A stretch of DNA of 64,000 nt from Rhodopseudomonas pentothenatexigens (lineage in GTDB: Bacteria > Pseudomonadota > Alphaproteobacteria > Rhizobiales > Xanthobacteraceae): NCBI RefSeq assembly GCF_900218015.1, contig NZ_UFQQ01000006.1, forward strand, positions 1-64,000. The letters are read 5' to 3'. Made by a program: the position numbers and the translations under genes. Of the stretch, positions 37,708 to 64,000 are shown piece by piece (within the stretch, counting starts at the first letter, position 1; each line of letters opens with the position of its first letter). The notes below the pieces were generated by a model. It had not been told where the DNA came from and made no database searches. It worked only from the letters and a program-made list of their open reading frames with translations.

Positions 37708-37797
37708 CCGTCATGGCCGGGCTCGTCCCGGCCATCCGGGTCTTTGCTGATCATCGACGCCGCAAGACGTGGATGCCCGGCACAGGGCCGGTGACGA
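37708..37797. repeat. Palindromic intergenic repeat, family C
   Basis: This 90-bp element opens CCGTCATGGCCGGGCTCGTC and closes GATGCCCGGCACAGGGCCGG, TGACG. It lies between tarM and the DUF3237 gene. Family C copies also lie at 53975, 58571 and, in coding sequence, 62985. Confidence 0.83.
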
Positions 37798-37806
37798 CCA
37801 AAATGG

Positions 37807-53934: not shown

Positions 53935-53974
53935 TATCGAGCCGTTCGGGATTGGGTACACGTCCGACCACCGC

Positions 53975-54063
53975 GTCATGGCCGGGCTCGTCCCGGCCAT
54001 CCACGTCTTGCTCGCGCAACTGACTGCGAGACGTGGATGCCCGGGACAAGGCCGGGCAAGACG
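53975..54063. repeat. Palindromic intergenic repeat, family C
   Basis: This 89-bp element opens CGTCATGGCCGGGCTCGTCC, continues CGGCCATCCACGTCTTG, and closes with AGACGTGGATGCCCGGGACA, AGGCCGGGCAAGACG. It lies between the convergent cyclase and glycerate kinase genes. Confidence 0.85.
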
Positions 54064-58516: not shown

Positions 58517-58570
58517 GGTGGTGATCGCTTCGTCTCCTTGTTCAATTAGTTGAGGACCACTTTTCAACGC

Positions 58571-58657
58571 GTCATGGCCGGGCTCGTGCCGGCCATCCAC
58601 GTTTTTTGCCGGACGCACCGGAAGGCGTGGATGCCCGGGACAAGCCCGGGCATGACG
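58571..58657. repeat. Palindromic intergenic repeat, family C
   Basis: This 87-bp element opens GTCATGGCCGGGCTCGTGCC and closes GATGCCCGGGACAAGCCCGG, GCATGAC. It lies in the 166-bp gap between the radical SAM and udgX genes, inside the likely operon. Confidence 0.85.
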
Positions 58658-60102: not shown

Positions 60103-60888
60103 ATGGACGGCGCCCGCCTCGGTATGCTTGCGCGCCTGCAGGGCGAGATCGACCGGCTGGAAAGCGGGACGGCGGAGACGCTGCGCCGCGTGCCGCTCGG
60201 CCATGACGGCGTGGATGCGGTGCTGCACGGCGGCCTGATGCAGGGCGCGCTGCACGAAGTGTTCTGCGACGGCCGTCACGCCTCCGCGGCAACCGGCTTC
60301 ATCGCCGGCGTGGCGCAACTGCTCGCGGAGGCGCGCTATCTGCTCTGGATCCGCCAGGATTTTTCCGCGCGCGAGAACGGCGAGCTGGCGATGGCAGGCC
60401 TCGCCGAACTCGGCTTCGACCCGCGCCGGTTGGTGATGGTACGCGCGCACGATGCCGACAGTGCGCTGCGCGCCTCTGCCGATGCGCTGGCCTGCAGCGG
60501 CCTCGGCGCGGTGATCACCGAGCTGTGGGGCGAGACCCGCGCGTTCGATGCCGTCGCCTCGCGCAAACTGACGCTGGCGGCGCAGCAGTCCGGCGTCTCC
60601 GCCTTGATGCTGCGGATCGCCGCCGCCCCGCAGGCCTCCACCGCCGAGACGCGCTGGGTGGTGCGCGCGGCGCATTCGCCGCCGATCGAAGGCTGGGGCG
60701 CCCCGGTGCTCGATACCTCGCTTGTTCGCAATCGTCGCGGCCAGACCGGTCGCTGGATCATGGAATGGAATTGTGATGCGTGCCGCTTCCGTGAACCGCA
60801 GACGCATTCTCGGCCTGTGGCTGCCGAGGCTGTCGACCGACCGGGTCGAACGTCAGTCGCTGTCTCCGAGCAGCGCCTCGCCGGCTGA
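60103..60888 (+). CDS. imuA: ImuA, SOS mutagenesis protein (RecA-like)
   Basis: This 261-residue RecA/SulA-like accessory protein is encoded from ATG 60103 with AAGGAG seven bases upstream. Typical segments are MDGARLGMLARLQGEIDRLE, GHDGVDAVLHGGLMQGALHE and LLWIRQDFSARENGELAMAG. ImuA belongs to the ImuA-ImuB-DnaE2 mutasome that carries out error-prone synthesis after DNA damage. An SOS box lies upstream. The imuB frame starts 113 bp before the imuA stop, so the two are translationally coupled. Confidence 0.92.
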   Translation: MDGARLGMLARLQGEIDRLESGTAETLRRVPLGHDGVDAVLHGGLMQGALHEVFCDGRHASAATGFIAGVAQLLAEARYLLWIRQDFSARENGELAMAGLAELGFDPRRLVMVRAHDADSALRASADALACSGLGAVITELWGETRAFDAVASRKLTLAAQQSGVSALMLRIAAAPQASTAETRWVVRAAHSPPIEGWGAPVLDTSLVRNRRGQTGRWIMEWNCDACRFREPQTHSRPVAAEAVDRPGRTSVAVSEQRLAG

Positions 60889-62374
60889 CGCTGCGCGCAC
60901 GCCCCGCGTGGTCGCCGCCAAGCGCGACAACGCGCTGGTGGTGGTGGCGTGCGACGCGCGCGCCAGCCGGGGCGGGGTGCTGCCCGGGATGCCGCTCGCC
61001 ACCGTGCGGGCGATGCATCCGGCGCTCGATGTGATCGATCATGATCCGCACGCCGATGCGGTGCTGCTGAATGCAATCGCCGACTGGTGCGATCGCTTCA
61101 CGCCGCTGGTGGCGCTCGACGGCGCCGACGGGCTGCTGCTCGATATCACCGGTTGCGCGCATCTGTTCGGCGACGAGGCGAAGCTCCTCAACACGCTGAC
61201 CGCGGCGCTGACGCGGCAGGGCTTTGCGGTCAGCGCCGCGATCGCCGGCACCGCGGTGGCGGCGCGGGCGCTGACCCGCGGCGGCTCCGGCCTGATCGTC
61301 GCGCCGGGCGACGAGCCGCGCGCGGTGGCGCCGCTGCCGGTGGCGGCGCTCGGGGTCGATGAGGCGATCGTGCGCGGTCTGCGCCGCGCCGGGCTCAAGA
61401 CCGTCGGCGAGGTGCTGGCGCGGCAGCCGTCCGAACTCGCGGCACGGTTCGGCGAAGGGTTCGTCGCGGTGCTGCGCCAGGCGACCGGCGAGGACGACGC
61501 GCCGATCTCGCCGCGGCGGCCGGCGCCGGACTACGTGGTCGACAAGAATTTTCCCGAACCGGTCGCGACCACCGAGGTCATTCTGCCGACGCTGCTGGCG
61601 CTGGCGCGGCTGCTGATCGCCGCGATGGAGCGGAGTGGCAAGGGTGCGCGGCAGCTCACCGCCAGCCTGTTCCGCAGTGATGGCGCGGTGCGCAGCATCA
61701 GCGTCGAGACCGGACAGCCGGTGACGCGGGTCGAGGTGGTGCAGCGGCTGTTCGCCGAAAAGCTCGATGCGCTGAACGATCCGCTCGATCCCGGTTTCGG
61801 TTTCGATCTGATCCGGCTCGCCGCCAGCGTCAGTGTGGCGGTGACCGAGGCGCAGCGCGGTTTCGACACCACCGCGCATCAGGCCGAGGACGTCGCCCTG
61901 CTGGCCGATACGCTGGCGGCACGGCTCGGCGCGCGGCGGGTGGTGCGTTATCTGCCGCAGGATACGCACATCCCGGAGCGCGCCGCGCTGGCCGTGCCGG
62001 TGCAGCATTGTCCGCCGGAGCCGGGCGATGTGCCGTGGCCGGCGCGCGCCGACGAGCCGCCGCTGCGGCCGCTGCGGCTGCTGCAACAGCCCGAACCGAT
62101 CGAGGTGCTGGCCGGCGTGCCGGACGGCCCGCCGGCGCAGTTCACCTGGCGCCGCGTCATCCATCGCGTCGCCCGCGCCGAAGGCCCGGAGCGGATCGCG
62201 ACAGAGTGGTGGCGCGCCGCCGAGCCCGGCCTGACCCGCGACTATTTCCGGATCGAGGACGAGGAAGGCGCGCGGTTCTGGCTGTATCGCGATGGCCTCT
62301 ACAACGTTGAAGTCACGCCCCAGCCCGACGGCAGCGGCCAGCCGCGCTGGTACATGCATGGGCTGTTTGCTTGA
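60776..62374 (+). CDS. imuB: ImuB, Y-family polymerase-like SOS mutasome subunit
   Basis: This is a 532-residue protein. The start at ATG 60776 (MRAASVNRRRILGLWLPRLS) is chosen over TTG 60722 because homology begins near RRILGLWLPRLSTDRVER. It overlaps imuA by 113 bp. Y-family polymerase segments are seen (TPLVALDGADGLLLDITGCA, GVDEAIVRGLRRAGLKTVGE and LARQPSELAARFGEGFVAVL). Catalytic acidic residues of active Y polymerases are not conserved in ImuB, which acts as a hub binding the beta clamp and DnaE2. It lies between imuA and dnaE2, separated from dnaE2 by a family B repeat. Confidence 0.92.
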   Translation: MRAASVNRRRILGLWLPRLSTDRVERQSLSPSSASPADAARTPRVVAAKRDNALVVVACDARASRGGVLPGMPLATVRAMHPALDVIDHDPHADAVLLNAIADWCDRFTPLVALDGADGLLLDITGCAHLFGDEAKLLNTLTAALTRQGFAVSAAIAGTAVAARALTRGGSGLIVAPGDEPRAVAPLPVAALGVDEAIVRGLRRAGLKTVGEVLARQPSELAARFGEGFVAVLRQATGEDDAPISPRRPAPDYVVDKNFPEPVATTEVILPTLLALARLLIAAMERSGKGARQLTASLFRSDGAVRSISVETGQPVTRVEVVQRLFAEKLDALNDPLDPGFGFDLIRLAASVSVAVTEAQRGFDTTAHQAEDVALLADTLAARLGARRVVRYLPQDTHIPERAALAVPVQHCPPEPGDVPWPARADEPPLRPLRLLQQPEPIEVLAGVPDGPPAQFTWRRVIHRVARAEGPERIATEWWRAAEPGLTRDYFRIEDEEGARFWLYRDGLYNVEVTPQPDGSGQPRWYMHGLFA

Positions 62375-62442
62375 GGGATGGACGAGGTGTTTAGCCCAGC
62401 CTCACCCCGTCATTGCGAGGAGCGGTGCGCACCGCCTCTCAC

Positions 62443-62523
62443 CGTCATTGCGAGCGTAGCGAAGCAATCCAGCTCCGTGCACTGCGCTGGATTGCTTCGT
62501 CGGCTTCGCCTCCTCGCAATGAC
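62443..62523. repeat. Palindromic intergenic repeat, family B
   Basis: This 81-bp element opens GTCATTGCGAGCGTAGCGAA and closes TTCGCCTCCTCGCAATGAC, with arms GAAGCAATCCAG and CTGGATTGCTTC. A half copy (GTCATTGCGAGGAGCG) lies just upstream at about 62409. It separates imuB and dnaE2. Confidence 0.85.
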
Positions 62524-62558
62524 GAATTCAACGATTGAGTTTTAGAACCGAGACGCCC

Positions 62559-64000
62559 ATGAGCGCGCCGCGTTACGCCGAAATCGGCGTCACCACCAAT
62601 TTCTCGTTTCTCGAAGGCGGATCGCATCCGCAGGACTATGTCCATGAAGCGAGCCGGCTCGGGCTCGACGCGATCGGCATCGCCGATCGCAACACGCTGG
62701 CCGGCGTGGTCCGCGCCTACAGCGAACTCGACAACGAGGACTTGGCTTACAAGCCCAAGCTGCTGATCGGCGCGCGGCTGTGCTTCATCGACGGCACGCC
62801 GGACGTGCTGGCCTATCCGACCGATCGCGCCGCCTACGGCCGCCTCTGCCGCCTGCTCAGCGCCGGCAAGCTGCGCGCCGGGAAGGGCGAGTGCCATCTG
62901 ACGTTCGCGGATTTAGAGGAGTTCGCCCACGAGCCTGCCACACCTAGCGATAGGGCTTCGGCTACTATCCACCAACTCCACTCCCCGTCATGGCCGGGCT
63001 TGACCCGACCATCCACGGCTCCGAGCAAGGCCGTGCTGGTGTCCGTGGATGCCCGGGTCAAGCCCGGGCATGACGGTGGAACGGTTACGGGTCGTCATTC
63101 GAAGATATTGCTGGTCGTCATGCCGGCCTATCGCTTCCAGACCAAAGCGATTGCCACCGCACTCGAACGCCTCACCGCCCTCAACGCCGGTGCCGTCTGG
63201 CTCGGCCTCGCGCCGTATTATCGCGGCGACGACAAGCGGCGGCTCGATCGGCTGCGCCGCATCGCGGCGGCAGCGAAGGTGCCGTGCATCGCCACCAACG
63301 ACGTACTGTATCACCACCCGGCGCGGCGCGCGCTGCAGGACGTGCTGACCTGCGTCCGCGCCAAGACCACGATCGACAAGGCCGGCCGCAAACTGGAGGG
63401 CAATGCCGAGCGGCATCTCAAGCCCGCCGCCGAGATGGCGCGGCTGTTCCGCGCCGATCCGGACGCGATCGCCGAGACGCTCAGGTTCGCGGGTCGCATC
63501 GGCTTCACGCTGGACGAACTGAAATATCACTATCCCGACGAGCCGGTGCCGCCCGGCAAGACCGCGCAAGCGCATCTGAAGGACCTCACCGAGCAGGGCA
63601 TCCAGCAATATTTCCCGCACGGCATCAGCGACAAGCTGAAGGCCACCATCGCCAAGGAACTGGCGATCATCGAACGGCGCGGCTACGCGCATTATTTTCT
63701 CACCGTGCACGACATCGTCCGCTATGCGCGCTCGCAGAATATCCTGTGCCAGGGCCGCGGCTCGGCGGCCAATTCGGCCGTCTGCTACGTGCTCGGCATC
63801 ACCTGCGTCGATCCGACCGAGATCGACCTGTTGTTCGAGCGCTTCGTCTCCGAGGAGCGCGACGAGCCGCCGGACATCGACGTCGATTTCGAGCATTCGC
63901 GCCGCGAAGAGGTGATGCAATATATCTATCGCCGCTACGGCCGGCATCGCGCCGCGATCGTCGCCACCGTGATCCATTATCGGCCGCGCTCGGCGATCCG
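62559..64000 (+). CDS. dnaE2: DnaE2 (ImuC), error-prone DNA polymerase III alpha subunit, partial
   Basis: The gene starts at ATG 62559 and is open to the window end, giving the first 480 of an expected 1050-1100 residues. The N-terminal PHP domain shows [20 protein letters not shown] and [20 protein letters not shown]. The palm region begins [20 protein letters not shown] and has [20 protein letters not shown] with catalytic Asp residues. Together with imuA and imuB it performs translesion synthesis. A family C palindrome (62985-63076) is embedded in frame and adds about 31 palindrome-encoded residues (143-173) plus flanks between [10 protein letters not shown] and [11 protein letters not shown], which are adjacent in related proteins as I recall. 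No stop results, so the protein is probably made with an extra loop. The ribosome-binding site is weak (GAG at -7). Confidence 0.88.
62985..63076. repeat. Family C palindromic repeat inside the dnaE2 coding region
   Basis: This 92-bp element, from CCGTCATGGCCGGGCTTGAC to CGGGTCAAGCCCGGGCATGA, CGG, has a nearly perfect palindromic structure (GGCCGGGCTTGACCCG against CGGGTCAAGCCCGGGC). It is read in frame as [31 protein letters not shown]. The inserted length keeps the frame of dnaE2. This recalls the palindromic elements in coding genes of Rickettsia. Confidence 0.85.

Follow-up and report, generated by a model that had tools for sequence, protein, structure and literature searches.

Palindromic repeats within coding sequences

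The closest described relatives of the element studied here are the CGTC-tagged REPs of Di Nocera, De Gregorio and Rocco (2013, PMC3733652). That paper reports CGTC-3 REPs in all six R. palustris strains examined; head-to-head dimers are the usual form, mostly as heterodimers, and families 3 and 4 have a 9-bp stem starting with A-T pairs and a 5-nt loop. It also mentions REPs inside DnaE2, UvrA, RecB and other repair genes (its text names no species for DnaE2) and states that, recB apart, the REPs of same-category genes occupy different sites. The authors speculated that REPs modify repair proteins, and placed RPE-4 and RPE-6 among the CGTC repeats. REPs in R. palustris and in DnaE2 genes have been published in this work, and the dnaE2 insert described below is of that known kind.

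Rickettsia palindromic elements (RPE) have a size of 105–146 bp and are in-frame palindromes in conserved Rickettsia proteins, according to a review (PMC2229807).

The dnaE2 locus and its palindrome

The window, i.e., the whole stretch of 64,000 nucleotides of Rhodopseudomonas pentothenatexigens DNA that was analysed, ends within dnaE2 (imuC). The first 480 codons of the gene lie at 62559..64000 on the plus strand, from an ATG at 62559, and the frame runs past the end of the window; it is 1191 aa long in the genome. Pfam recognises a PHP domain (residues 12–106) and DNA_pol3_alpha in the product. The upstream neighbour is imuB (60794..62374, plus strand, IMS domains in Pfam), whose product is the mutasome partner of DnaE2. 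The gene imuA (60103–60888) has no Pfam match and is assigned from position and gene order alone. The gap between imuB and dnaE2 contains a second CGTC-type palindrome of another sort (62408–62524, CGTCATTGCGAG...). No Rfam match was obtained in the whole window at gathering thresholds.

The palindrome in the dnaE2 frame (62986..63075) is, from its inverted repeat and unit patterns, a head-to-head heterodimer of two 32-nt REP units whose CGTC tags point outwards. The left unit (62986..63017, plus strand) has a stem with 8 of 9 bp paired and the right unit (63044..63075, minus strand) a stem with 9 of 9 paired; they are separated by a 26-nt spacer, called type A (63018..63043). Both units have an unpaired CGTC tag at one end, a 9-bp stem beginning with A-T pairs, a 5-nt loop (CTTGA) and a short unpaired CCA tail. 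The inverted repeat has arms of 46 nt which are 83% complementary (62985–63030 and 63031–63076). The element proper measures 90 bp, and the 92 bp given by the initial annotation are reached if one more complementary pair is counted. By its sequence features, the palindrome is a CGTC-tagged REP, with described characters which are common to families 3 and 4.

The unit patterns, with up to 3 mismatches, have 6 and 4 matches in the window, whereas 100 shuffles of each gave 0 on average. Three other dimers are present, at 37709–37799 (with a degenerate right half, 8 mismatches), 53974–54063 and 58570–58657. Reading of the ORF list places these copies, which start at 37709, 53974 and 58570, between genes, as the initial annotation had claimed, although the last lies within an upstream TTG extension of an ORF; the other long ORFs that cover the three copies look like antisense or out-of-frame shadows. 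The claim that a palindrome of a dispersed family lies in the open frame of dnaE2 is thus borne out by the inverted repeat, by the copies and by the 480 codons open in the window.

In the genome of the same strain, a one-unit pattern with up to 2 mismatches finds 45 + 46 units (0 + 0 with the reversed control), and these 91 units are dispersed; to judge from the loci placed, the copies are mostly intergenic, as in CGTC REPs. Among the 22 best-match loci, dnaE2 included, 21 full dimers of 83–92 bp could be placed. The length is divisible by three in 10 of the 21, and 70 of their 126 reading frames are open. An ORF spans the dimer at 11 of the 21 placed loci, and dnaE2 is the only one of the 11 with a Pfam match. 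The ten other ORFs were considered as real genes and rejected: none (0/10) has a Pfam match and they look like antisense shadows.

The loop in the protein

The palindrome is part of an expanded loop of 186 nt, or 62 codons (62925..63110, plus strand); R. pseudopalustris, whose allele is empty, has 15 nt in its place. The net gain is 57 residues in the window, only 30 of which come from the palindrome that the initial annotation held to encode the extra peptide; variable PSASIHQ-like stretches lie 5′ of it. The number of these PSASIHQ-like heptads (62925–62985 here; also seen in L003 and L011) differs between species. The loop had been located in the PHP-domain part of the protein, which may hold for the PHP region in a broad sense, but the Pfam domain covers residues 12–106 only and the insert comes after it.

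For the 480-residue fragment, an AlphaFold2 model based on 50 aligned sequences has a mean pLDDT of 76.7 and a pTM of 0.62. Residues 127–178, between a helix (116–123) and a strand (183–188), are below pLDDT 50, whereas the adjoining blocks reach about 92. The structures of DNA polymerase III alpha subunits in the PDB align at residues ~12–57 and then from ~220. The extra loop of about 57 residues is predicted to be disordered, in agreement with the added loop proposed earlier.

The remainder of the gene looks functional. Upstream of the loop, the differences by codon position are 0.08/0.04/0.28; the third-position excess is retained, a pattern as under purifying selection. Downstream, the PDIDVDF motif, which has a catalytic role, is invariant across 50 sequences.

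Presence of the insert in the genus

The insert occurs at the dnaE2 site in 15 of the 16 Rhodopseudomonas genomes: 12 have the 90-bp element, two have decayed in-frame versions and one is partial (G014, in which a contig end cuts the loop). The insert is not a feature of this strain alone: it is widespread in the genus, and its kind appears in PMC3733652. R. pseudopalustris (G012) is empty, with SQGLS where the others have the loop. The segments that flank the loop are contiguous in the R. pseudopalustris, Afipia and Bradyrhizobium alignments, as the initial annotation had stated for related proteins. For 19 dnaE2 genes, a tree that leaves out the loop gives the R. pseudopalustris branch a support of 57; this species may have branched off before the insertion or have lost the insert. 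G006 and the genome of L043 are displaced in this tree, as both have a divergent allele in the downstream part of the gene. Such a divergent downstream allele is seen in L007, L010 (the loci of G015 and G006) and L043, the gene being a mosaic between species.

The 14 complete insert-bearing loops have lengths of 123 to 228 nt, all multiples of three, and the phase of the element is identical in all 14. A frameshift, which the initial annotation named as the sign of an assembly error, was therefore not seen (14/14 complete loops in frame). An artefact of reading frame or assembly, with the region untranslated, is extremely improbable: one and the same frame is kept in the 14 complete loops and the partial one of the 16 genomes, and a long open frame follows, with the motif that is invariant in 50 sequences. 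Homologues with the same residues and no palindrome had also been named as evidence against an insertion. R. faecalis (G001) and JSC-3b (G003) come weakly close to this case, having shortened remnants of 87 and 75 nt in which related residues are kept and no inverted repeat of score ≥12 remains. Their REP units are still recognisable, so these loops are read as decayed.

As a control, none of 11 partial DnaE1 frames of the genus (2850–3039 nt) contains an inverted repeat of score ≥13.

Variation of the arms and of the spacer

In the 11 genomes with full flanks, variation at silent positions is about ten times lower in the arms (0.025) than upstream (0.28) or downstream (0.27), and no value as low as that of the arms occurs in any of the 444 windows (21 third positions each) taken from the flanks. 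At codon positions 1 and 2, the arms have a variation of 0.073, versus 0.08–0.09 in the flanks. The spacer varies by 0.52 overall in the same 11 genomes, and by 0.57/0.52/0.47 according to codon position. The low silent variation of the arms, together with a spacer that is variable at all codon positions, points to arms held as DNA. To judge from these alignments, it is at the DNA level that the arms are kept close to the family consensus; the loop peptide looks unconstrained.

These data bear on the idea that the added residues have been retained because they tune the activity of DnaE2 or the contacts it makes in the mutasome. The retention of the insert in 15 of 16 genus genomes and the recurrence of DnaE2 and ImuB inserts in other taxa (see below) would agree with it, as would the speculation of Di Nocera et al. 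about modified repair proteins (PMC3733652). However, the element has no third-position excess, its spacer varies at every codon position, unrelated spacers replace one another and R. pseudopalustris lacks the insert altogether, which makes such an adaptive role unlikely.

The hairpin itself could also be kept, as RNA or DNA, to limit the synthesis of DnaE2 by an effect on translation, RNase or transcription. The arms are conserved at silent sites, and the RNA fold of the palindrome (−85.9 kcal/mol, z −8.05) is more stable than that of any of 200 shuffles. On the contrary, the intergenic copies at shared loci (two sets of three) differ at just 0–2 of 32 arm positions across species, while their spacers differ far more, so the conservation of the arms looks like a property of the family. 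Moreover, the palindrome decayed in two species in which the frame was kept. A role of the hairpin in limiting DnaE2 is therefore improbable, and the evidence favours a DNA-level process, rather than selection on the protein, as what shapes the dnaE2 palindrome.

At one shared intergenic locus, the element of L291 appears flipped relative to its flanks in comparison with L326, L327 and L330, which would fit an inversion of the palindrome.

At least four unrelated spacer types occupy the dnaE2 site across the genus. Between G000 and G005, 21 of the 26 spacer positions are different, whereas there are 2 differences in the next 35 nt and 3 in the next 120 nt. Conversely, G006 and G005 have identical spacers (0/26) and right arms (0/32), with 22/120 and 21/120 differences in the flanks; G006 has the G005 spacer within a G015-like gene. 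These two patterns suggest that loops were swapped in short tracts between species. In the 16 genomes searched, the type A spacer has matches with up to 2 mismatches in 8 genomes, all of them at dnaE2 (three other matches have 3 mismatches), and type B occurs at two dnaE2 genes alone.

Ectopic donors of the spacers were sought for types A and B in the 16 genomes, and none was found. Local mutation driven by the palindrome was also considered, since third-position diversity is high just after the loop (0.50). It was rejected because insert-free relatives are equally or more diverse there: five related genomes that have no insert at this place reach 0.61.

The different spacers could also mean that each Rhodopseudomonas species acquired its own insert at one site, instead of sharing a single old insertion. 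The four or more unrelated spacer types would fit, as would the residues that precede the element in G008, G001 and G003, which differ from those of the other species. In most species of the genus, however, common loop residues surround the element; the phase is the same in 14 of 14, and short-tract exchange accounts for at least one swap. Independent insertions are accordingly quite unlikely.

Origin of the insert

The observations are most probably explained, with high confidence, by the in-frame insertion of a REP dimer into a tolerant loop of DnaE2 in a Rhodopseudomonas ancestor, with arms held by a process acting on DNA. A head-to-head CGTC dimer, from a family of about 90 units in the genome, would have inserted in frame in the ancestor of most Rhodopseudomonas. 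Its persistence would be owed to a loop tolerant of inserts and to the many open frames of the repeat, which leave the gene working. The arms may be kept near the consensus by recombination among the copies or by selection acting on the hairpin, rather than by selection on the peptide, and the loops would occasionally be exchanged between species by short-tract recombination. The tolerant places of DnaE2 and ImuB would have taken in different palindromes in other Alphaproteobacteria. On sequence grounds, the in-frame insertion of the REP is real and apparently old, and the SOS polymerase that carries it looks functional. It is a clean case of a dispersed palindrome that was built into a conserved enzyme and has been retained across most of a genus.

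Recurrence in other DnaE2 proteins

The sample consisted of 205 DnaE2: that of the window genome, 79 of a set of 80 (the fragment L042 was omitted), those of 120 regions, and five more genus loci. The 120 regions come from 80 of the 87 class genomes with a match and from 40 of the 124 family genomes outside the genus, mostly from the top of the list. The sample thus leans to unbroken genes, 7 class genomes with shorter or broken matches and 84 of the 124 family genomes being left out. Clustering at 95% identity gave 196 proteins, of which 195 cover place 1, 191 cover place 2 and 182 nearly the whole gene. Palindromes were retained at a score ≥13 with loops up to 60, and positions refer to the empty DnaE2 of R. 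pseudopalustris. Chance palindromes were excluded by eye: of 37 listed, those of L192, L239 and L212 were not retained, being chance repeats of the coding sequence or part of an N-terminal extension. The repeats of L046 and L110, which are seen only if longer loops are allowed, are not counted.

The 34 inserted palindromes that are left, many of which share descent, occur in 33 of the 196 DnaE2, and all lie at reference positions 126–138 or 805–855. The first place has 16 (10 in Rhodopseudomonas, 2 in Bauldia, 2 in Sphingomonas, and those of G027 and G052) and the second has 18. The families differ, including CGTC types with different stems and GGGGAG-like repeats. The G027 insert belongs to a CGTC repeat of which this genome has 49 units, the two in dnaE2 among them, and the G285 insert belongs to a repeat with 7 matches in its genome, itself included. 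Weaker inverted repeats (score 12) are scattered along dnaE2. At least 20 extra residues are present at positions 120–145 in 46 proteins and at 800–860 in 44, most of them without a palindrome, and this clustering of length variation at both places points to tolerant loops.

The statement about two places is valid for the sampled DnaE2 only, since nine family genomes left out of the sample (G232, G292, G240, G213, G301, G256, G332, G236 and G317, with frames of 1226–1367 aa) have DnaE2 matches that break near position 555–560. A third insertion place is possible there, in genomes outside the sample; among the 196 DnaE2, no insert of ≥12 residues was found at 530–600.

ImuB and the neighbouring genes

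ImuB was found in 184 of 200 loci, and 20 inverted repeats were listed. Ten of these, in 9 proteins, lie mainly in columns that few ImuB have, 7 of them near reference positions 24–32; the repeat of L220, at the extreme N-terminus, may fall outside the gene. The imuB genes with in-frame palindromic inserts, mostly after ~24–32 residues, are those of L047, L061, L044, L058, L066, L198, L276, L277 and perhaps L220. Bauldia litoralis (L047), Sphingomonas YR710 (L061) and L276 have inserts in both ImuB and DnaE2.

In the 120 regions, palindromes with homology on both sides are found in 8 of 120 dnaE2, compared to 5 of 673 other genes (Fisher p = 1.5e-4 as scored), and 3 of these 5 are in the 104 imuB-like genes. 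Without the cases judged by eye to be chance (L192 in dnaE2, L207 in imuB and two in L270), the counts become 7/120 for dnaE2, 2/104 for imuB and 0/569 for the others (p = 4e-6 for dnaE2). As dnaE2 is longer and better covered by homologues, its neighbours make an imperfect control.

From the sequences compared, we take this recurrence to mean that SOS mutasome proteins have loops tolerant of inserts, into which palindromes were inserted repeatedly. It could be taken further: imuB-dnaE2 would be a preferred home of in-frame palindromes across Alphaproteobacteria, at fixed loop positions and for unrelated families, drawn or kept there by something about these genes, such as single-stranded DNA and transcription during the SOS response or a selective benefit of length-variable loops, so that the insert would be a recurrent modulator of induced mutation. 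This extension is rather doubtful. What is striking in the results is that inserts recur at the same places of mutasome proteins.

Comparison with known systems

A literature search with peptide strings of the inserts gave no match. Recurrence at two places, inserts in ImuB and DNA-level conservation of the arms were not found among the matches listed.

By its described characters, the element resembles RPE, as the initial annotation had proposed: both are palindromes in frame in conserved proteins, translation being inferred here from the frame. The likeness is of a broad kind only, as RPE are Rickettsia elements of 105–146 bp, whereas this one is 90 bp long and found in Rhodopseudomonas. The enterobacterial ERIC/RU-1 fusions, described in the same review (PMC2229807), also consist of a small repeat fused in frame, but the element is different, has target duplications and occurs in other hosts.

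The CGTC-3 REPs of R. palustris, as PMC3733652 describes them, share with the dnaE2 element the tag, the stem and loop lengths, the tail, the head-to-head heterodimers, the dispersed copies and the host genus; the likeness is by description, and the features tested also fit family 4. As for the REPs of repair genes in the same paper, the common point is a REP inside dnaE2. What differs here is that several families recur at two places of DnaE2, that ImuB has inserts too, and that the arms are conserved as DNA. Since inserts recur in DnaE2 and ImuB, what was speculated in 2013 on the REPs of repair genes can be put to the test, as a choice between loop tolerance and an effect on induced mutagenesis.
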